Of a stretch of 27,111 bases of DNA, positions 14,300-27,111 are shown piece by piece. Each line of letters begins with the position of its first letter. Position 1 is the first letter of the stretch. Below the pieces are notes generated by a model. It was not told the DNA's origin and ran no database searches. It was given only the letters and a program-made list of their open reading frames with translations. The stretch comes from a virus. The stretch lies in the IMG/VR virus record IMGVR_UViG_3300025647_000219, positions 1 to 27,111 of that record; one strand, 5' to 3'. The translations under genes were made by a program, and so were the position numbers.

Positions 14300-16084
14300 T
14301 TAACCCGGGAAAGTAGCTCCTGTTGGTAAAATGTTGAAATCCAAATAAATAAATTCAGCAGTTTTAGTTGGTTGTAAATAGATCTGACCAATTAATTCAT
14401 TTCTATCAATTACATCTGCTGTGTTATTTGAATCGTCCATAATTACTTTATAAGCAAACAAACCTTGTTGTTGTTGAACTGATTCTAAATATGGGTTAAC
14501 TTGGTTTAAGAAACTAGTACGAGTAGCTACTGTATTTTGTTCAAATACTAAGTTATTAGCAATATCGCTGATTCTAGTTTTTAAAGCAATTAACAATCTT
14601 CTAACATTTACTCTATCCAAAGCAGAAGCTCTAGTTTGTAATGTTTTCTGACCATATACTACAACTCCTTGTCCTGGGAAAGTAGCTACTGGGTTTACTT
14701 TGTTTTGGTAAAGTGTATTTCTATCACTATTAGTTAATTTCTTTTCAGCACTAATAGCGTTTATAATACCTCCTCTATTCAAACCAGCTGGAGCAAACCA
14801 TGGAGCAGCAATTGTGTCGTTATTAACATATACCGCTGGAATCATAGTAGAAGCTGGAACCCAAGTAAATTCACCTGTTAATGGATCAACTGTTTGAACC
14901 CAAGGCCAGTAAGTAGCAGCGTATGAAGTATCTATTGTATTAGCGTATTGAGATACCGCTGTAACTGTACTACCATATAAAGCCATATCGATCACTGCAA
15001 TAGCATCTCCTCTGTTTGTAGTATTGTTTACTAAAGTATTTAATGAAGTTATACCAGTAGCATTGTCATAAGCTAAACCTGGTACTGCGATTACATTATA
15101 AGCATATTCATCTTGGTTTGACATGATATCAATACCACCAGTAATATTAGCAGCACTTAAACCTTGAATGTTAGTAGAAGTAATATTGTTGTAGTATTTA
15201 TCGGCTCCACTAGTTCCTAAATTACCTATAGCATTTCCAAAGTAACCTTGTTGAGCTACTGGGATTGAAGCTGTAAACTCAGCTTTAGCATTTCCATTGT
15301 TATCATAGAAATAAGGAGTTTTATATGGTACTGAAGTAATAGTAATATAATTACTTCTATTTGGATAGTTTCCAGAAGTATTTACATACTCATATTTACC
15401 ATTTGAGCCTGTAGCAACTGTAAATGTTTGGTTACCAATTACTCTTTCAATGTAGTTTGGTTGAGTTGGGTCTAATGATAAGTTAGTCCAAGTTTCTAAT
15501 ACAACTTTACTATTTGTATTATCATCTCCTCTTCTTACTAATAATGAAAAAGTTCCTGAAGCTGTATTTGGTGATACAATTTCATAACGTAAGTTATCAA
15601 TAGTACCATTTGTTAATGAACCACTAGCATCTATACTACCTGAACTGTTTTGGTTAGCTCCATAACTTAATGGAGCGATAGTAAATGAAGCTGATGAGTT
15701 AAGGTTTGAAGCAGCGCCTAATTCAACTGTGTTAATAATACCTGTAACATCACCGTCATTTTGACTACCGGTAATTGAAATTGCTGATGCAGCTGTGAAT
15801 GAACCACTAGCTACTCTAGTAACCCATAAACTTTCTCCTCCGTTTTGGAAGTAGTTATAAGCTGCTGTTGATGTGAAATAAGTGTATTGAGTCGAACCAC
15901 TCAAAAACGTACCGCCAAAATAAGTCAAATATTCTGAGAAGCTAGTAATTCTTCTTGGAACATAAGGCTGACCTTTTACTGTTGGACCAACAATAGCTGC
16001 TCCAATAGTAGCTGCTGCTTGGCCGGTAACTGTTAAATCGTTTTCTCTTGCTAATACGCCTGGAGATAAAAGTGTTTCTGCCAT
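14300..16084 (-). CDS. 18: Tail sheath protein (T4 gp18-like)
   Basis: A 594-residue protein starting LLSPGVLARENDLT, the N-terminal linker pattern of contractile sheath proteins. A central variable, Ser/Thr/Asn-rich region (about 100-330) likely forms the protruding surface domains. The conserved C-terminal core has KVNPVATFPGQGVVVYGQKT, LDRVNVRRLLIALKTRI and the closing strand LIGQIYLQPTKTAEFIYLDF followed by NILPTGATF. T4 gp18 has 659 residues. It contracts to drive the tube through the host envelope. The gene stands 37 bases ahead of the tube gene and has a TATAAATAT box 23 bases before its ATG. The surface domains are one plausible target of the neighbouring sugar genes. Confidence 0.93.
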   Translation of the reverse strand: MAETLLSPGVLARENDLTVTGQAAATIGAAIVGPTVKGQPYVPRRITSFSEYLTYFGGTFLSGSTQYTYFTSTAAYNYFQNGGESLWVTRVASGSFTAASAISITGSQNDGDVTGIINTVELGAASNLNSSASFTIAPLSYGANQNSSGSIDASGSLTNGTIDNLRYEIVSPNTASGTFSLLVRRGDDNTNSKVVLETWTNLSLDPTQPNYIERVIGNQTFTVATGSNGKYEYVNTSGNYPNRSNYITITSVPYKTPYFYDNNGNAKAEFTASIPVAQQGYFGNAIGNLGTSGADKYYNNITSTNIQGLSAANITGGIDIMSNQDEYAYNVIAVPGLAYDNATGITSLNTLVNNTTNRGDAIAVIDMALYGSTVTAVSQYANTIDTSYAATYWPWVQTVDPLTGEFTWVPASTMIPAVYVNNDTIAAPWFAPAGLNRGGIINAISAEKKLTNSDRNTLYQNKVNPVATFPGQGVVVYGQKTLQTRASALDRVNVRRLLIALKTRISDIANNLVFEQNTVATRTSFLNQVNPYLESVQQQQGLFAYKVIMDDSNNTADVIDRNELIGQIYLQPTKTAEFIYLDFNILPTGATFPG

Positions 16085-16972: not shown

Positions 16973-18811
16973 TTAAAAAGTATTAATTAATTTAATATAT
17001 TTTTTTATTTTATCAGGATCATTATGTAAAGGAATTAAAGACAAAATTAATGATTTAGTAATTATTTTTATTTTTTCAAAGTCTTCATTTACTTGATTTT
17101 TAAAAAAAGATAATAAATTGTCTTTATATGATTTTTTAATTTTTTTATCCATTAATATTTCATCATATCCTATTAATGATTGATATATTTTAGCATAATC
17201 ATAAAGAGATAAACCATAACAAGTTTTTTTAGTTCCTACTATTCCTCTAACATCAACAAATTTTATATCCTCCACAGTAGTTAATAATATATTACTAAAA
17301 ACACAATCTCCATGAATCATTACACTTTTATAACCTTCATTTTCAATATAGGTTAATTGGTCTTTAATTTGTATAATATCATCTTCATTTACACCATATA
17401 GTTTATAATCATACATGGCTATTCTTTTAGAAAATTTATCACTTAAATTAGGGTAACTATAATATATTTCATTGTTTTCTATATTATTATGTAATAATTT
17501 TATTTTATCAAATAAAAGTTGAAGATGATCAGTTGTGAGAATATTATTTACATACATTGTACTAAAATTAATACCTTCAATTGTTTCAAGTTCTAAACTA
17601 TTATTAGTATAAGAAATTAATTTAGGAAACAATTTTTGAATTTCTTCAGTTCCATTATCTTGAACCCACTTATAATATTCTATTTCACCTTGAAGTTTAG
17701 GATCTAAAGATTTTTTTATAAATGTATTTCCTATTTCAACTTCATTAAAATGTCTAGCAGAAACATCTTCCATATAAAACCCTAATGTTTTATTTAAATC
17801 AGTTTTTGGATTTATCATCAAATCATCAACATAATAATGAGCATAAGGTTTTCCAAAATATAACTCATCATATGGAATATTATATTTTTCTAATGTTTCA
17901 ATTGTAATTTTTCCAATATCAGCTATTACTCCTCCAATATTACCACTATGGGTTCTCATTCTTCTAGCAGTATAAATAATAATAGTATGACCTTTTTCTT
18001 TTAATTTTTTTAAATAATTAATAGTGTCAAGTATTGGTTCTACTGAAGTATAATCATCTTTAATTTTAGGGTATGTGACTAATGTATTATCTAAATCAAA
18101 ACAAAATCTCTTCTTTGGAATATCATATGTTTTAGAAAACTGGATAATTTGTTGGGGGGTTCCAAGTACATGGAAATCTGTGACTTTAATAGGAATAAAT
18201 TTTTCCCCTTTTTCAATCATTTTTTCTATAACTTGAGAAGTATATAATTCATGTTCATTTTTAAATCCAATTTCTAATATTTGTTTTTTTAATGTTTGAG
18301 AATCTTTAAAAACATAACAACCACTATTAGCATTATTTGAAATTTTAATTTTCTCTTTTATATTAATAATTGAGTTATCTTTTATTTGAATATAAGAATA
18401 AATAGGGTTTGGATTTTTAGATTCAAAATAAAGAACAGAGTTTTCTTCTACTGTTTTAATTTTTTCAAGTATATTTTCTTCATACCAAGTATCCCCATCT
18501 AAAACAATAACTTTACCTTCAATTTTAAAACAATCTAACCCCATTAATACAGTTTCAGAAGCTCCTCTAGTATTAGGAATAGGAGCTAATTGGATATTAG
18601 GATATTTTGAATTTATAATTTCACTAAAATTATAATATTCTAGATACTCATTATACGGAATAAAAATTTTATCATCTTTAGTTATTTTTAAAGAGTCTAA
18701 AAGCCAAAAAATAATTTCTTTACCTAAAACTTTAATTAAAGGTTTAGGCATATGGTATCCATATTCAGAAAATCTTTTTCCTACACCACCTAAAGGAATT
18801 AATATATTCAT
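16973..18811 (-). CDS. Three-domain sugar-activation protein: nucleotidyltransferase, HAD phosphatase, kinase
   Basis: The 612 residues read as three enzymes in one chain. Residues 1-225 are a nucleotidyltransferase of the sugar-nucleotide type: LGGVGKRF (7-14), MPKPL (21-25), and VLDGDTW with the D105/D107 metal pair. Residues 233-345 are a HAD phosphatase: CFDLDNTL (D239, D241), YTARRM (280-285), and GKPYAHYYVDD with K321 and D329/D330. Residues 360-612 are a choline/aminoglycoside-type kinase: MIHGDCVFSNIL (D502, N507) and FVDVRG (D520). Kinase, phosphatase and nucleotidyltransferase are the three chemistries used to make GDP- or ADP-heptose, normally on two or three proteins. The substrate cannot be read here; a phosphocholine- or capsule-type activation is the alternative. 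It overlaps the upstream GT by ATGA. Confidence 0.78.
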   Translation of the reverse strand: MNILIPLGGVGKRFSEYGYHMPKPLIKVLGKEIIFWLLDSLKITKDDKIFIPYNEYLEYYNFSEIINSKYPNIQLAPIPNTRGASETVLMGLDCFKIEGKVIVLDGDTWYEENILEKIKTVEENSVLYFESKNPNPIYSYIQIKDNSIINIKEKIKISNNANSGCYVFKDSQTLKKQILEIGFKNEHELYTSQVIEKMIEKGEKFIPIKVTDFHVLGTPQQIIQFSKTYDIPKKRFCFDLDNTLVTYPKIKDDYTSVEPILDTINYLKKLKEKGHTIIIYTARRMRTHSGNIGGVIADIGKITIETLEKYNIPYDELYFGKPYAHYYVDDLMINPKTDLNKTLGFYMEDVSARHFNEVEIGNTFIKKSLDPKLQGEIEYYKWVQDNGTEEIQKLFPKLISYTNNSLELETIEGINFSTMYVNNILTTDHLQLLFDKIKLLHNNIENNEIYYSYPNLSDKFSKRIAMYDYKLYGVNEDDIIQIKDQLTYIENEGYKSVMIHGDCVFSNILLTTVEDIKFVDVRGIVGTKKTCYGLSLYDYAKIYQSLIGYDEILMDKKIKKSYKDNLLSFFKNQVNEDFEKIKIITKSLILSLIPLHNDPDKIKKYIKLINTF

Positions 18812-19890
18812 TTTGCTATAAATCTACAATTAAGTTTATCATATGTGTCATTATTCACATAAGTAGTTATTGTATGTTCTTTATTATCATACATCATTTT
18901 ACTCATAAAAACCATATCTTCTTGTCTATCAATAATATCGTAACACCAAGCTTTAGGAGATAAGGTTACTTTTTTATAATAACCTTTGTTTGAAACTATT
19001 TCAACATCAACAGAATCATAATCCATATTTAAATAAAAAAGTACTAATCTGTTTTTATCAGGTTTGTGACCACCATCAACATCAAGTCTAGCTATCTTTG
19101 GAATGTCTTTCCATTTATCAGTCCATAAACCTGAGGATGAAATTCTATCAAATTGGGAATTTGGAAATTGAGTTCGAGTAAAATTATGGTAAAAAGTTCC
19201 TTGAATGTTTTCTTTTAAATTATAATTAAACACCATAGCAAGAATATATTCACTCCATTTACCAACATATCCTATTTTTTTACATAAAGACCAAAATTCA
19301 TTATCGTTTTTCACATAATCAAATCCCTGAAGTGTTTTGTTTGAGTATCCACAAAAATGTAAATCAATTAAAAATTGGTAATTTTGTGCCCATTTACCTT
19401 CTTGACGTTTACCATATATTAAAAATTCTTCATTTTCAAATTTATTAAGGTCATCTAATATGGTTTGAAATTCAACTTCATCAAACAACATATCATACTC
19501 AATCCTAAAAACTTTTTCATATCCAAGTTTTTTAGCTTCTTTAGATGCAAATATAAAACCGTTATAAACATTGGCCACATGGTCTGATACTCCTTCTAGA
19601 GGCATCCAATTTTCTAATGTTTTTCCTTCTACCTCAAAATACACATAAGGCATATCATATTGTTTATTTTCTAATACATCATTAGGAGGATATCCTACTA
19701 AAAAACCATCAAGATATTCACAATAATAGTCAACATATTGTTCAATACCCCAAGAATTATTAAATTTATTAATTAATAATATTTTTCTTTGGGGGTCTAA
19801 TTTTTTAAGTTGGTTAATTAATTCAAGGGTGACTTCAAATTTATCTTTAGAAGTTAAATAACCATCTATAACATACAATATATTACTCAT
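18808..19890 (-). CDS. Putative GT-A-type glycosyltransferase (360 residues)
   Basis: The first about 260 residues resemble a GT-A nucleotide-sugar transferase: MSNILYVIDGYLTSKDKF, a Rossmann-like start, then EKVFRIEYDMLFDE (126-138), where an acidic triad replaces a plain DxD, and later SGLWTDKWKDIP. The last about 90 residues (HKPDKNRLVLFYLNMDYD onwards) form a small beta-rich domain of unknown use. No signal peptide or membrane anchor, so it acts in the cytoplasm. Its stop overlaps the start of the three-domain sugar-activation gene (ATGA), and it follows the FkbM gene by 10 bases. Glycosyltransferase assignment rests on the motif and on context; acceptor and sugar are unknown. Confidence 0.55.
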   Translation of the reverse strand: MSNILYVIDGYLTSKDKFEVTLELINQLKKLDPQRKILLINKFNNSWGIEQYVDYYCEYLDGFLVGYPPNDVLENKQYDMPYVYFEVEGKTLENWMPLEGVSDHVANVYNGFIFASKEAKKLGYEKVFRIEYDMLFDEVEFQTILDDLNKFENEEFLIYGKRQEGKWAQNYQFLIDLHFCGYSNKTLQGFDYVKNDNEFWSLCKKIGYVGKWSEYILAMVFNYNLKENIQGTFYHNFTRTQFPNSQFDRISSSGLWTDKWKDIPKIARLDVDGGHKPDKNRLVLFYLNMDYDSVDVEIVSNKGYYKKVTLSPKAWCYDIIDRQEDMVFMSKMMYDNKEHTITTYVNNDTYDKLNCRFIAK

Positions 19891-19900
19891 GGTTTTTTAT

Positions 19901-20572
19901 TCAACGATTATCAATATGGATTATAACTTGATTATAATATTCTATAAAATGTTCATTCCACAAATCCCATTTAATACCTTGACCATCAACTGAAAATAAA
20001 TCATGGTTTGGGAATAATTTTAAATATATATCCCTAAACTCTCTAAATTGTTCTTTTTGTTTTGGAGTTTCTAAATGCCATTCACCTACTATTTTTCTAA
20101 TATTTTCTTTTATCCACCAAATATTTTCTCTATTGAATATTTCATACTCACCTCCCTCACAATCTGTTTTTAAAAAATCAATGCTGGAAATGTTATATTC
20201 ATCAATAAAAGTTTTAAATCTTATACTTTCAACTGTTTCAATTTTATTAACAGAACCATATACTTCAAATTCATCATACCCATCTATATTAGATATACCT
20301 TTAGGTATTATTGTATAATTTAAACCATTAAGATTATTTTTTAAAGATGTTAATTCTTCTTTACTAGGTTCAAAACAGTAAACATGTTTTGGGTTTTTTT
20401 CTTTAATTACAAAAGGAAAAGGACCATTGCTAGCTCCAAAGTCAACAACAATATCATTTTCTTCAACTTCAAAAAGTCTAGTGTATAAATTATAGTTTGA
20501 AAATTCTTTAATAATTTGTTCTTTGTACCAATCATTGGCGGTACCCCAATCAAAAGTTGTAAAATCTATCAT
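19901..20572 (-). CDS. FkbM-family SAM-dependent methyltransferase
   Basis: The 223-residue protein carries the FkbM pattern: SAM motif I VVDFGASNG (42-50), HVYCFEPS with the acidic residue E68 (63-70), the valine/isoleucine strand YTIIPKGISN (86-95), and IDFLKTDCEGGEYEI (131-145), the signature motif of the family. FkbM enzymes O-methylate hydroxyls, often on sugars or glycolipids. In this cassette the likely role is to methylate the transferred glycan, changing its charge or recognition. It begins inside the stop of the GT4-heptosyltransferase fusion (ATGA) and so is translationally coupled to it. High confidence for the family; the substrate is unknown. Confidence 0.85.
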   Translation of the reverse strand: MIDFTTFDWGTANDWYKEQIIKEFSNYNLYTRLFEVEENDIVVDFGASNGPFPFVIKEKNPKHVYCFEPSKEELTSLKNNLNGLNYTIIPKGISNIDGYDEFEVYGSVNKIETVESIRFKTFIDEYNISSIDFLKTDCEGGEYEIFNRENIWWIKENIRKIVGEWHLETPKQKEQFREFRDIYLKLFPNHDLFSVDGQGIKWDLWNEHFIEYYNQVIIHIDNR

Positions 20573-22851
20573 AATTTTAATTTATTAAATACTTGTAAGG
20601 GTGTTATTGATTTTTGACATATATGTTGATATTCAGTTCCTTTATAGACGGGGCACCAGTCCCAATCACCAGCATCAAAAATATGTACTGGATCATTCCA
20701 ACATTTTATACATAAATCATTTGTTATTTTAGTTAAATTAGAAGTAAATTCATGCCCTTCTTTAACAAAACCATTAATCATATAAGTATGATTTCCTAAT
20801 GCCCAATTGATCCAAGATAATCCTGAACCTAGTCCTATAAAGGCTTCGGCGTAATGTAAATAAGTAGCTACCTCATCCCATGATTTACCATACAGATTTA
20901 AACCATAAGATATTTTATATTCAGTTCCTGTTATAACAACTATATCATAACCAATTTGTTTTAACATTTTAGCTAATGATTTCCAATTATTATAAGTCCA
21001 TTCTTTACATCCTGAAGTTGCTTGTGGTCCAAAAACTATATATTTTTTCTTTTTTGGTCTTAATCCTATATTAAAATTAATTCCATAGTTTAATTCTTTA
21101 AATTCTAAACCTAAAATATCTGTAGCTGTTTGTTGTAAAGGAATTAAATTTACTTGGTTAGGATACATTTCAAATTTATTCCATTTACCAGAATCTCCTT
21201 TAAACCATCCTATTTGATATTTAACATCACATTTTGTAGACTGGCCAGGTTCTAAAAATTCAATATCTTTATATGGTTCTAATTCTTTAAACCAATTATT
21301 ATGGAATGTACTTAAAATAACTTTACAATTATGTTTTTTAGCAAAATCAACAGCATATGGTGCCCATGCTATTGTATCACCTATTGATTTTGAGTCTAAA
21401 GCTATTAATACCCGTTTATTATCTAAAGTAAATTCATCTATTATATCTCCATTAACTTTAATTTTCCATTTAGTATAATACACTCTAGAACATTTAGTCC
21501 ACATATTATTTGTAATAGTATCTTTATGAACAATATTATTATTTTCATCTAAAAATTCAATATAATATTCCTGATCATTTTCTCCTGTGATTTCTACTTT
21601 AGGACCTTCTAAATAACTAATGTTTATTTTATTATTTTGAGGGATATGGGGATGTTTTTTATGAAATTCTAATAATGTGTTATAACCTATTTTTCCTATA
21701 TTTTCCCAACTAAAATTACGTCTAATTTCTTCTGATTCTTTTAATGCTCTTTTTTTACATTCATCATGTTTTATATAAGAATACATCATCATTAATTGTA
21801 AATGATTAAAATCAGGTTCATAATAGTTACCTGGAAGATCACTCATTTTATATCTAGCATATGAGTTTATATCAGCTGGTTTTTCTCCTAAAATATTTAC
21901 TGGTATTCCTTTATTTTGGGCAAATTCAAGTTGGCCTGAACAATTGGAGTAAATTGAAGGTGTTCCACAAGCCATTGCTTCAATTAAAGGTAAATTCCAA
22001 CCTTCAGAACGGGAACAAGATAAAAATACATTACATGATTTTAATATTTTAATATAATCTTCTCTTGAAGGAAAATGAACTATTTTAATACGTGGATCTA
22101 TTAAATTATAATGAGCTAGTCTTTCTTCTGTTGTTTCAAACCCATCAATTTCTTTACCAAAAACATTATCTATAGAAACAATTAAATCAACAGGTTCATT
22201 ATTTGTAAATGTATTTAAAAATGTTTCAATAATTTCTTTAGTTGATTTTCTATAATCCCATCTACCTGCTAAAAAGAATTTAAATCTACCATCTGATGTT
22301 AGTTCATGGGTTGTTTCTTCAGGGTAGAAAATATTAGTATCTACACCTTCAGGAACTACTTTAATTTTATCAGAATCATATCCTTGTTTTATTGTTACTT
22401 CTTTTTGCCATTTTGACGGAACCCATAATTCATCAAATTCTTTTAATTTTTCAAAATATTCTTCAGGTTGTAAAGTAGATTCCCAAACATTATAAGCTAT
22501 TTTAGGACCAACATAACTATCATAAAAATAATGGTGATTAGTTTCACTTAATACTAAATTAATATCCGGTCTAAAATTTTTAGAGTCTGATGGGTACATT
22601 AATATATCAGTTCGATGTGGTTTTTGAGTCCATAAAGTTTGTTGATACAACATACTTTTATCAATATCAGTTAAATAACTCTCACCATTATGGGGAGTGT
22701 CAGACATACCCTCCCAAGAATTTCCTATAGAAAAATTTCTAATTTTTAGTTGTAAATATTTATTTAATTCTCTAAAAAAATCTCTTGTATGGTGGTTATA
22801 ACCTGTATTTCCTATATAAGAACAATGAGCGTATATTTTTAATTTATCCAT
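20569..22851 (-). CDS. GT4 glycosyltransferase fused to autotransporter-heptosyltransferase-like domain
   Basis: The 760-residue protein has two transferases. Residues 1-400 are GT-B/GT4: VVPEGVDTNIFYP (165-177), FLAGRWDYRK (193-202) and SEGWNLPLIEAMACGTPS with the E283-x7-E291 pair. Residues 408-760 match the bacterial autotransporter heptosyltransferase (TibC/AAH) family as I know it. There is a beta lead-in (ISYLEGPKVEITG), then VLIALDSKSIGDTIAWAP, a KEWTYNNWKSLAKMLKQIGY segment, FIGLGSGLSWINWALGN (671-687), INGFVKEGHEF, and a cysteine finger C714-x2-C717-x15-C733-x11-C745 with CWND. In that family four such cysteines bind iron, and the enzyme adds heptose to Ser hydroxyls of repeat proteins. 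Its start overlaps the acetyltransferase gene by 8 bases and its stop overlaps the FkbM gene by ATGA. Confidence 0.82.
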   Translation of the reverse strand: MDKLKIYAHCSYIGNTGYNHHTRDFFRELNKYLQLKIRNFSIGNSWEGMSDTPHNGESYLTDIDKSMLYQQTLWTQKPHRTDILMYPSDSKNFRPDINLVLSETNHHYFYDSYVGPKIAYNVWESTLQPEEYFEKLKEFDELWVPSKWQKEVTIKQGYDSDKIKVVPEGVDTNIFYPEETTHELTSDGRFKFFLAGRWDYRKSTKEIIETFLNTFTNNEPVDLIVSIDNVFGKEIDGFETTEERLAHYNLIDPRIKIVHFPSREDYIKILKSCNVFLSCSRSEGWNLPLIEAMACGTPSIYSNCSGQLEFAQNKGIPVNILGEKPADINSYARYKMSDLPGNYYEPDFNHLQLMMMYSYIKHDECKKRALKESEEIRRNFSWENIGKIGYNTLLEFHKKHPHIPQNNKINISYLEGPKVEITGENDQEYYIEFLDENNNIVHKDTITNNMWTKCSRVYYTKWKIKVNGDIIDEFTLDNKRVLIALDSKSIGDTIAWAPYAVDFAKKHNCKVILSTFHNNWFKELEPYKDIEFLEPGQSTKCDVKYQIGWFKGDSGKWNKFEMYPNQVNLIPLQQTATDILGLEFKELNYGINFNIGLRPKKKKYIVFGPQATSGCKEWTYNNWKSLAKMLKQIGYDIVVITGTEYKISYGLNLYGKSWDEVATYLHYAEAFIGLGSGLSWINWALGNHTYMINGFVKEGHEFTSNLTKITNDLCIKCWNDPVHIFDAGDWDWCPVYKGTEYQHICQKSITPLQVFNKLKL

Positions 22852-23392
22852 TTATAAATTTATCAATAAAACTTTCTATATTATTTGACCACATTATCAT
22901 AGCATTATCTTTAATTTTTTGTTCATCCCAGTTCCACCAAGAAATTAATAATAATTTTTTAATTTGTTCTTCTGTAAATCTATATTTTACAATCTTGCCT
23001 GGGTTTCCTGCTATAATAGCATATGGGGGAACATCTTTAGTTACTGTTGATCCAGCTGCTATAATGGAACCATTTGAAATTTTAACACCTGACATTATAG
23101 TTGATTTAGCACCAATCCAAACATCATTTTCAATTATAATGTTTCCTTTACAAGTTGGATGTCCCATATCCATATGCATTTGAGCAATTTCAGGAGTAAC
23201 AGGTCCCCATAATTGAGAAGATGTAGTTATCCAATCAGATCTATGGTTAGCATGAAGAAAAAAGTTACAATCTCTTCCAATTGAATTATATTTACCTAAA
23301 ATTATTTTATAATCATCACTCCATGATATAATATTAACATTACGATCAAAGTACGTACCTATATCTGATATCCATAAATGTATATTTTCCAT
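22844..23392 (-). CDS. Hexapeptide-repeat (left-handed beta-helix) O-acetyltransferase, CatB-like
   Basis: The 182-residue protein shows hexapeptide repeats: IILGKYNSIGRDCNFFLHAN (30-49), with the candidate catalytic H50 in ANHRSDW, then GNIIIENDVWIGAKSTIMSG (83-102), VKISNGSIIAAGSTVTKDVP (103-122) and PYAIIAGNPGKIV. The C-terminal helix with ISWWNWDEQKI is typical of the xenobiotic/CatB branch. Such enzymes are trimers that use acetyl-CoA to acylate a hydroxyl or amine, often on a sugar. Here it is the second gene of the sugar cassette, 6 bases after a GT and overlapping the GT4 fusion by 8 bases. Glycan acetylation is the natural inference. Confidence 0.85.
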   Translation of the reverse strand: MENIHLWISDIGTYFDRNVNIISWSDDYKIILGKYNSIGRDCNFFLHANHRSDWITTSSQLWGPVTPEIAQMHMDMGHPTCKGNIIIENDVWIGAKSTIMSGVKISNGSIIAAGSTVTKDVPPYAIIAGNPGKIVKYRFTEEQIKKLLLISWWNWDEQKIKDNAMIMWSNNIESFIDKFING

Positions 23393-23398
23393 AATATT

Positions 23399-24187
23399 TT
23401 ATGTTTTATGAAGTTTAAATTCATCATCATAAGAAATCCAATAAGTATAATTATTAGATATTAAGGATAAAATAGATCTAAATAAATATTTTTCATTCCA
23501 ATCAAAAAAGATCCACACATCTTGAGGGGACTCAGTTAAAGCAAAATCAACAATATATTCATTTCTGACATCATATATATCATATCCTAAATTTACAATT
23601 TCATGAGTAAAATCAATTTGAACTTGTTCAATATCTTTATAATTATTACTTAAAACATGAGGTAATGAACCTAACTTATTATAAACTTCATTTAATACTT
23701 TAGTTGAAGATATTCCGGTGGTGTGTCCTAAATGTTTTTTGTTATTACACCAACCATTAGCTTCTCTAACAACCATTCCAAAATAACCACAATTTGGAGA
23801 AGTTAAAAATTTATTTTTAAGATATATGTCCCAATTATCCTCAACAAAAAAATAATCATCTTCATTAAAAATAAAATAATCATATTTACTTCTATGTTTT
23901 TCAAATAATTCTGAAAAGGCAGCAAAACTCATTCCTATATTATTTCTAAAATTTATCTCAATTTCAGTACCGTTAATAAATTTAGGTACTATTTTAAAGA
24001 TTTCAGAGACATATTCATAATCTTCTTCTCTAATATTAAAAGTAAAAATAACTTTTGATAAAGAATTTTTTATTTTATATAAATATTCTATTTGTTTTTT
24101 AAGCAAAAAAAGTTTATCATTAGTATATTCAGGAAGTTGTTTACGTCTTTCACCTAAATAAAAGTTAATAATATAACAGGTTTTCAT
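23399..24187 (-). CDS. Putative GT-A-like glycosyltransferase (262 residues)
   Basis: A cytoplasmic protein without a signal peptide. The N-terminal region begins MKTCYIINFYLGERRKQLP; a central DYFIFNEDDYFF (103-114) has the acidic cluster N-E-D-D at the place where GT-A enzymes bind the metal and nucleotide sugar. It continues with YFGMVVREANGWCNNKKHLG and a KVLNEVYNKL segment. It resembles nucleotide-sugar transferases found in phage and capsule clusters, but not a single family I can name. It is the first gene of the sugar cassette and precedes the acetyltransferase by 6 bases. A 62-base A/T-rich gap before it may hold a promoter, but I see no clear one. Confidence 0.55.
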   Translation of the reverse strand: MKTCYIINFYLGERRKQLPEYTNDKLFLLKKQIEYLYKIKNSLSKVIFTFNIREEDYEYVSEIFKIVPKFINGTEIEINFRNNIGMSFAAFSELFEKHRSKYDYFIFNEDDYFFVEDNWDIYLKNKFLTSPNCGYFGMVVREANGWCNNKKHLGHTTGISSTKVLNEVYNKLGSLPHVLSNNYKDIEQVQIDFTHEIVNLGYDIYDVRNEYIVDFALTESPQDVWIFFDWNEKYLFRSILSLISNNYTYWISYDDEFKLHKT

Positions 24188-25475: not shown

Positions 25476-27111
25476 TTATTTATTTTTTAATTTTTCAATT
25501 TCTTGTTTTAAGTTATCTATTTGGTCTTGTTGTTCTTTAATACCTTCAATTAACAGACCTACTAAGTTACCATATGCTACTGATAAATATCCTTCAGAAT
25601 CAGTTGAAACTGCTTCTGGGGCTACTTTTTCAATTTCTTGGGCAATAACACCCATTTTTCTCTTAGTTTGATCAGTATCCGTTTTTAAGAAAGTAACACC
25701 TCTAATTTCTTTAATTTTTTCTATAGCATTTTCAATTACTTGAATTTCAGTTTTCTTTCTAATATCTGAAGATGCTATGATATCTCCTGAGGCATATATT
25801 GAATCACCTGATACATCTAGAGCTACATGTAATGGATAACTTGGAGCTGCTGTTCCAATACCTACTCTTTTGTCGTTTCTAACTATTAGAATACTAGTTC
25901 TAGAATCATCAACAAATTGAGCACAATAAGTAGCAGAAGTTGTTCCTGTACCTCTAACAGCAAATTCTGTGGATGATGGAGGAGTGTTAGTTGAAACATC
26001 ATATCCTACAAATACACCTTTATCACGACTAACAGTATCAGTATCCATTAAGATTGACTTATATGCTCCTGAACCAGCTCCGTAGTTGTAGCCAGCAAAT
26101 TGAGTATAAGATGTATTACTGTATGGGAAAATAAATCCAGAAGCAGAACCGCCTGTTTGACCACATCCAAAGAAGGCATAAGTGTCGTCTCTGAAGTCCA
26201 TAATTGAGGTTCCATTGCCTGTTTCTACTACAAAGTTTTTAGTTGCGGATGTAGTACCTGATCCTTTAACACTTAATGTAGCATTAGCTGAAGCTCCGCT
26301 TCCTACTTTTAAATAGGATCCATCAAATGTTAAATTAGCTTCACCATTAATAGTTGATGTACCAGTAGCTGTTAATACATAATTGTTTGTATTGTTAGAT
26401 ATAGTAGCAGCACCACTTGTACCTGATGAACCTGATGTACCTGATGAGCCGCTAGTTCCTGATGAACCACTTGTACCACTAGCTCCAGCAGCACCTGAGG
26501 TACCAGATGAACCACTTGATCCTGAGGTACCAGATGAACCACTTGATCCTGATGTTCCTGAGCTTCCACTTGTTCCACTTGTTCCAGCAGCTCCTGTTGC
26601 ACCTGTTGCTCCTGAAGTACCACTTGATCCTGATGAACCACTAGTTCCTGAACTTCCGCTTGAACCTGATGTTCCTGAGCTTCCTGAAGTACCAGATGAA
26701 CCGCTTGTTCCTGAAGTACCTGCTGCACCTGCAGCACCTGTTGCTCCTGAGGTTCCTGATGAACCTGATGAGCCACTTGTTCCGCTTGAGCCACTTGACC
26801 CAGATGTTCCTGAACTGCCTGATGTACCAGATGTACCTGATGTTCCTGAAGCACCACTAGCTCCTGAACTTCCACTTGTACCACTTGAACCTGAAGAGCC
26901 TGAAGTTCCTGAAGAACCTGAAGAACCTGAAGTTCCGCTTGAACCTGAAGTTCCGCTTGAACCTGATGTTCCGCTTGAACCTGATGTTCCTGAAGCACCT
27001 GGAGAACCAGTAGCTCCTGATGTACCTGAAGAGCCTGAGCTTCCACTAGTTCCTGAAGAACCTGAAGAGCCACTTGTTCCGCTTGAACCAGAGGTACCTG
27101 AAGAACCAGAG
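25476..27111 (-). CDS. Tail fibre/adhesin with Gly-Ser/Thr-Ser repeat and Peptidase_S74 chaperone, 5' end outside window
   Basis: One open frame runs from the window edge (codon boundary at 27110) to the stop at 25476, 544 residues, without a break. The visible 5' part, 27110 to about 26400, is a near-continuous Gly-x-y triplet repeat (GSSGTS, with GAA, GAT variants), a collagen-like rod rich in Ser and Thr. Then follow [20 protein letters not shown]-type strands, a beta region with [19 protein letters not shown], and at the C-terminus [20 protein letters not shown] through [16 protein letters not shown], the Peptidase_S74 intramolecular chaperone. The Ser of SDIRKK (codon at 25769) is the expected self-cleavage site, and a coiled coil closes the protein. 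It should form a trimeric host-recognition fibre; the Ser/Thr rod is the best local candidate for glycosylation. Confidence 0.85.
26400..27111. repeat. Tandem Gly-x-y coding repeat of the fibre rod
   Basis: About 79 triplets encoding Gly-Ser/Thr/Ala-Ser/Ala in a row, with degenerate 9- and 18-base units such as CCTGATGAACCA. It runs off the right edge. The other frames also stay open because of the repeat, making long but false frames on both strands. Confidence 0.85.

Follow-up and report, generated by a model that had tools for sequence, protein, structure and literature searches.

A phage protein that fuses nucleotidyltransferase, HAD phosphatase and APH-fold kinase domains as a probable one-polypeptide route to a nucleotide-activated sugar

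A single phage protein carries a nucleotidyltransferase, a HAD phosphatase and an APH-fold kinase, and this full fusion is a new form of a widespread, known, uncharacterised sugar-activation module. We consider that the protein probably provides a complete pathway from a sugar phosphate to a nucleotide-activated sugar. This kinase, phosphatase and nucleotidyltransferase logic had been put forward in the original prediction from the DNA letters, and the domains, motifs and gene linkage described below agree with it. The gene is located in the window (the whole stretch of viral DNA analysed, 27,111 nt), which sits exactly inside a 55.7-kb IMG/VR viral contig. The parent contig, from a phage of marine type, harbors genes for RNR, DnaB helicase, UvsX, PhoH, tail tube and tail sheath, in line with the earlier description of the product as a phage protein. 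The ORF and its domains are as follows.

16973..18811, minus strand: tri-domain ORF of 612 aa with an ATG start, in the order nucleotidyltransferase, HAD phosphatase, APH-fold kinase
18128..18811, minus strand: domain 1 (aa 1-228), GT-A-fold sugar-1-phosphate nucleotidyltransferase (PF00483, 4evw)
17777..18112, minus strand: domain 2 (aa 234-345), HAD phosphatase related to EcbF/BcbF (TIGR01689, 9iqw, 1xpj)
16979..17749, minus strand: domain 3 (aa 355-611), APH/PKL-fold small-molecule kinase with H500-G-D502, N507 and D520 (Foldseek)

The three active sites had been described as intact, and we located all of the motifs on which this description was based: GGVGKRF (aa 8-14), DGD (105-107), DLDNT (239-243), VDD (328-330), HGD (500-502) with N507, and DVRG (520-523). 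When the protein was aligned with 11 homologues sharing 42-57% identity with it, G9, G11, R13, K23, D105, D107, D239 and D241, as well as K321, D329, D330, H500, D502, N507 and D520, were invariant in all 12 sequences. As the catalytic residues are invariant across proteins at this level of identity, a chance ORF or a pseudogene was ruled out. AlphaFold2 modelled each domain of the whole protein well (mean pLDDT 85.8), while the relative placement of the domains was not fixed (pTM 0.54). The GC content of the ORF is 22.5%, below the 30% of the window and the 35% of the contig, which suggests that the gene is acquired DNA.

Domain 1 contains GGVGKRF, PK23, D105/D107, E153-K154 and LGTPxQ. Residues 7-226 match the Pfam family NTP_transferase (PF00483) with an E value of 6e-12 and 46 bits, above the cut-off of 21.2, and the GxGxRF, PK and catalytic Asp pair of this family are present. 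The closest relative in both sequence and structure is 4evw, a nucleoside-diphosphate-sugar pyrophosphorylase from Vibrio cholerae RC9, which ranked first in the profile search (1.7e-39, followed by ST0452 at 3.6e-14 and HddC at ~1e-12) and in Foldseek (1.1e-14). In contrast to the fused domain 1, 4evw is a stand-alone protein, and we found no published function for it. The NCBIfam HddC model matches 11 of 18 members of the nucleotidyltransferase family, and MurU is a weak sequence match. Judged by sequence relationships, domain 1 groups with the sugar-1-phosphate enzymes (RmlA/HddC-like).

Residues 234-338 match TIGR01689 (EcbF-BcbF) with an E value of 5e-22 and 78 bits, which is below the 162-bit family cut-off, as are the matches in nine cellular genomes tested; domain 2 is thus a related HAD rather than a member of TIGR01689. 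It also matches 9iqw (3e-33) and 1xpj (5e-30). Its place in the HAD superfamily is indicated by D239, D241, K321, D329 and D330, and this D, D, K, DD set is kept in 20 proteins. A GmhB match to this domain was not found in Pfam, NCBIfam or structure-profile searches. PHROGs and phage records, that of P-SSM2 among them, give HADs of the same family (L013:6995-7339; phrog_1238) the misleading label 'phosphoheptose isomerase'.

The C-terminal part of the protein (residues 345-602) matched no named family, PHROGs of unknown function being the sole matches. The AlphaFold2 model of the kinase alone (mean pLDDT 91.8) was assigned by Foldseek to the APH/choline-kinase/maltokinase fold, with maltokinase and glucosamine kinase as the top matches (probability 1.0, E 2e-7) and with APH and ethanolamine/choline kinases at about equal E values (2e-7 to 4e-7). 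Besides the fold, the HGDxxxxN loop and the metal-binding Asp of this group are present, and the kinase homologues match Pfam APH weakly. Neither a GHMP nor a PfkB match was obtained for the tri-domain protein in Pfam and NCBIfam. Taken alone, the modelled kinase fold would fit sugars, aminoglycosides and choline or ethanolamine alike.

This breadth bears on the possibility, raised earlier as a refutation, that the protein is a phosphocholine or phosphoethanolamine enzyme composed of a LicA-like kinase and a LicC-like cytidylyltransferase. The kinase fold does span ethanolamine and choline kinases, from which the C-terminal domain could not be distinguished, and one bacterial relative weakly matches Pfam Choline_kinase. 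The same check came out otherwise at the N-terminus, which is of the sugar-1-phosphate type: CTP:phosphocholine cytidylyltransferase (1jyk) matched domain 1 at only 1.1e-4 and within residues 3-71 (70 residues), and 4evw, ST0452 and HddC rank far above it. In addition, such a pathway would have no use for the conserved HAD, and LicD was absent among the scanned neighbours (Pfam). On the affinities of domain 1 and the presence of the HAD, we rejected this reading as very improbable.

The full fusion is not confined to the window. When the HAD-kinase part was used as the query, the three domains were detected within a single ORF (608-635 aa) at 11 further viral loci. A genome scan added a fused copy on each of four marine bacterial contigs, assigned to Neomarinimicrobiota, alphaproteobacteria, Pelagibacteraceae and Prochlorococcus, so that the same one-ORF domain order occurs in 16 proteins altogether. 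No INPHARED phage record contains the full tri-domain architecture. In a concatenated-domain tree constructed by a quick method, a single branch (SH-aLRT 100) separates the 16 fused proteins from all others, in keeping with a fusion that arose once. Copies from viruses and from cells are interspersed in this quick tree, and the window protein is nearest to the Neomarinimicrobiota copy and to L016, its nearest viral relative. L016 has a DNA alpha-glucosyltransferase-like (PF11440) gene at 1241-2494 in a cluster with fucosyltransferase and GT25 genes; with this PF11440-like gene, a role in DNA modification is conceivable for L016. A human faecal phage scaffold (L011:4120-5271) encodes a 383-aa HAD-kinase fusion without the nucleotidyltransferase, in which DVRG is changed to LDSE.

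The genome scan also revealed ~26 bacterial and archaeal loci, from Legionella to Planctomycetota, Verrucomicrobiota, candidate phyla and thaumarchaea, where the kinase, HAD and nucleotidyltransferase are encoded by adjacent genes or as pairwise fusions, including HAD-nucleotidyltransferase and nucleotidyltransferase-kinase. As the scan was seeded with the fused protein, this count indicates widespread linkage and is not an unbiased rate; 10 further loci had the HAD alone. The unfused module recurs next to GT2, GT4 and WavE LPS genes, and its neighbours overall include glycosyltransferases, epimerases, aminotransferases and FkbM methyltransferases. The same set is found in annotated capsule/LPS clusters on independently recorded plasmids of Legionella sainthelensi, E. 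coli (p3347558_2), Citrobacter and Caballeronia, with profile E values of 1e-24 to 4e-95. In these capsule/LPS modules (Legionella with WavE, p3347558_2, thaumarchaea), all three families are adjacent as in the phage protein, but the genes are separate or only partly fused, and the kinase often bears another nucleotidyltransferase-like domain, whereas the phage protein is fully fused. Many module kinases have an extra N-terminal region of ~220-240 residues, some of which are recognisable as a second nucleotidyltransferase domain; the extra domain was seen in L040, L046, L079, L080 and L081, and is a recognisable nucleotidyltransferase in L040.

In the marine thaumarchaeal contigs L040, L042, L056 and L064, a gene for a fused HAD-nucleotidyltransferase precedes that for a kinase with the extra N-terminal domain, and their clusters also contain glycosyltransferases and hexapeptide transferases, as in an archaeal glycan cluster. 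On the Citrobacter and Caballeronia plasmids, the stand-alone nucleotidyltransferase bears the annotation 'glycosyltransferase family 2'. By gene size alone, CJSA_1353-1355 (240, 507 and 132 aa) suggest the same module in Campylobacter, and the Campylobacter fructose literature yielded no matching characterised enzyme. We found no assayed cassette member and no assigned product for the kinase-HAD-nucleotidyltransferase module in the literature consulted.

The fixed company of kinase, phosphatase and nucleotidyltransferase fits a route from a sugar phosphate via a 1,x-bisphosphate and a sugar-1-phosphate to an NDP-sugar. The three domains, their conservation, their fusion and their gene linkage are observed here, and we infer the order of the steps, the phosphorylated substrate, the sugar, the nucleotide and the acceptor. 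The starting substrate would be a host sugar phosphate, e.g. a pentose 5-phosphate, hexose 6-phosphate or heptose 7-phosphate. The C-terminal kinase would phosphorylate the anomeric carbon to yield the 1,x-bisphosphate, the middle HAD would remove the terminal phosphate already present on the substrate, and the N-terminal domain would couple the resulting sugar-1-phosphate with an NTP. Neither a KpsF/SIS isomerase, for which the control phage was positive, nor GmhA (SIS_2) was found in any of the 12 tri-domain viral records, several of which, including that of the window, are fragments; the substrate would thus come from the host.

The HAD nearly always accompanies the kinase and nucleotidyltransferase, and a simple route with only the latter two would need no phosphatase. 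This pairing also bears on whether a free sugar could instead be activated by an anomeric kinase and a nucleotidyltransferase as in AmgK/MurU-like salvage, with the HAD as an editing or post-transfer phosphatase. The maltokinase and glucosamine kinase matches and the weak MurU match are consistent with such salvage, and the HAD phosphatase domain of C. jejuni Cj1432 works after ribose-5-phosphate transfer (PMC12096443). However, across the cassettes the HAD is tied to the kinase and nucleotidyltransferase and not to transferases, and no phosphoribosyltransferase-type domain was recognised beside it, and we regard activation of a free sugar as rather improbable.

The nearest experimentally linked set of kinase and HAD is that of RB69-type phages, whose DNA carries arabinose (PMC6024577; PMC13390438). 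A role in UDP-arabinose synthesis was proposed for RB69 ORF53_52c and ORF055c (PMC6024577), and neighbouring RB69-type genes were later tabulated with homology to RmlA and aminoglycoside phosphotransferase and with a phosphatase domain (PMC8056088). In T4-type phages, e.g. O157 typing phage 6, kpsF, a 561-aa nucleotidyltransferase-kinase gene and a HAD gene adjoin one another. Inactivation of the homologue in Thanatos nearly abolished phage growth (PMC12838424), and the arabinose route was still uncharacterised in 2026 (PMC13390438). By profile search, the RB69-type cassette (RB69p051/p052/p055; Thanatos TH1_060 homologue) has kinase (1.8e-36) and HAD (2.3e-19) components of the same families as the window protein. 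In contrast to the window protein, with three fused domains and no isomerase found, the RB69-type cassette has its HAD as a separate gene, includes an adjacent KpsF isomerase and serves DNA as the acceptor.

These similarities raise the possibility that the window protein makes an activated pentose, e.g. NDP-arabinose, as proposed for RB69, destined for a protein glycan or for DNA. The RB69-type kinase and HAD lie beside an arabinose-5-phosphate isomerase, but they are only ~30% identical to those of the window, and the nucleotidyltransferase half is very divergent from domain 1 (5e-4). Against a pentose also stand the SIS isomerase not found in the tri-domain viral records (several of them fragments) and the acetyl-, methyl- and several glycosyltransferase genes of the window cluster, which looks like a set for protein or polysaccharide decoration and not for base modification. 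We consider the pentose conceivable, if unlikely. Only through the RB69 link would a pentose come somewhat ahead of a heptose as the product.

The genes at 16973-24187 constitute a glycan cluster between the fibre and sheath genes, with the following surroundings.

14300..16084, minus strand: tail sheath, downstream boundary of the cluster (PF04984/PF17482, phrog_23)
18808..19890, minus strand: protein of unknown family, 360 aa (no Pfam, NCBIfam or PHROG matches)
19901..20572, minus strand: FkbM-type methyltransferase (PF05050, 2e-13)
20569..22851, minus strand: GT4 glycosyltransferase fused to a TibC/Aah-type (BAHT, GT9) heptosyltransferase domain, 760 aa (Pfam GT4 and GT9)
20617..20712, minus strand: BAHT iron-finger cysteines (CxxC ... 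C ... C), aligned with TibC C339/C342/C358/C370 (PMC4358343)
22844..23392, minus strand: hexapeptide (CatB/Vat-like) O-acetyltransferase (Pfam, NCBIfam)
23399..24187, minus strand: protein of unknown family, 262 aa, upstream end of the cluster (no Pfam or NCBIfam family)
25476..26201, minus strand: C-terminal end of a tail-fibre-like protein with an S74 chaperone domain, upstream boundary of the cluster

The tail-fibre-like protein is 4182 aa at full length in the longer contig. The ORF at 18808..19890 overlaps the tri-domain ORF by four bases, so translational coupling of the two is likely; its product had no match in 50,697 phage records. The proteins at 18808-19890 and 23399-24187 are possible glycosyltransferases of an unrecognised family. 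The NDP-sugar donor would feed the phage's own glycan cluster and, as this sits between the fibre and sheath genes, most likely serve to decorate a virion protein.

The original prediction had hinged on the neighbour being a heptosyltransferase, and this was borne out. The BAHT domain matches TibC (4rap) at 3.8e-29 and TIGR04414 at 3e-57 with 194.1 bits, just under the cut-off of 200, and the four iron-finger cysteines, the catalytic Asp (GD; Asp110 equivalent) and the Lys230 equivalent of TibC/Aah are all kept. Differently from TibC/Aah, the domain is fused to GT4 and encoded by a phage, and TibC Arg286, which contacts adenine, is not kept, nor, by alignment reading, is it kept in three other phage homologues. 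We dropped the loss of Arg286 as a sign of a non-ADP donor because phage BAHT domains without a nearby tri-domain gene share this loss. As the neighbour lies beside a giant tail fibre, the phage may O-heptosylate its own adhesin. The GT4-BAHT protein has a counterpart in a Microcystis phage (98% query coverage, 44% identity). Microcystis phage Mel-JY01 encodes a protein of 1226 aa (L075:4750-8430), deposited as an FkbM methyltransferase, whose two ends are formed by GT4 and TibC-type domains, and near it a 639-aa cytidylyltransferase-like protein (L075:11243-13162); the pair is a candidate donor-plus-transferase set.

With a genuine BAHT domain next door, the product could be read as an activated heptose, made from heptose-7-phosphate via the 1,7-bisphosphate and used by the TibC-type domain. 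The GDP-heptose pathway (GmhA, HddA, GmhB, HddC) follows the same chemical logic, and HddC shares the superfamily of domain 1, is among its nearest solved relatives and matches most of the family in NCBIfam as described above. However, the pathway consists of separate proteins, in which HddA is a GHMP kinase and GmhB belongs to another HAD subfamily. The phage kinase is APH-fold, and GHMP, PfkB (HldE-type) and GmhB families were all unmatched, as was GmhA (SIS_2) in the 12 viral records. ADP-heptose is usually made by HldE, which is unrelated to the tri-domain enzymes. It is ADP-heptose that TibC uses as its donor (PMC4358343). Furthermore, TIGR04414 found no match in any of the 11 further viral records with a tri-domain gene, and the Microcystis phage and huge phages have BAHT domains with no tri-domain gene in the fetched flanks. 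The assignment to heptose is therefore not supported, and we judge this product possible but quite improbable. The heptosyltransferase and the tri-domain gene may share a glycan without sharing one step. It is very unlikely that one polypeptide converts a host sugar phosphate to an activated heptose with which the phage's own BAHT, which lacks the adenine-contacting arginine of TibC and may take another nucleotide, heptosylates the giant tail fibre, as a phage counterpart of autotransporter-style hyperglycosylation.

The module to which the fused protein belongs is met repeatedly in capsule and LPS clusters, and its range takes in bacterial phyla, thaumarchaea and phages. Knowing its product would suggest functions for genes annotated at present as 'HAD hydrolase' or 'capsular biosynthesis protein' and would also clarify the arabinose route of RB69. 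The tri-domain protein itself is a possible single-enzyme tool for NDP-sugar synthesis.
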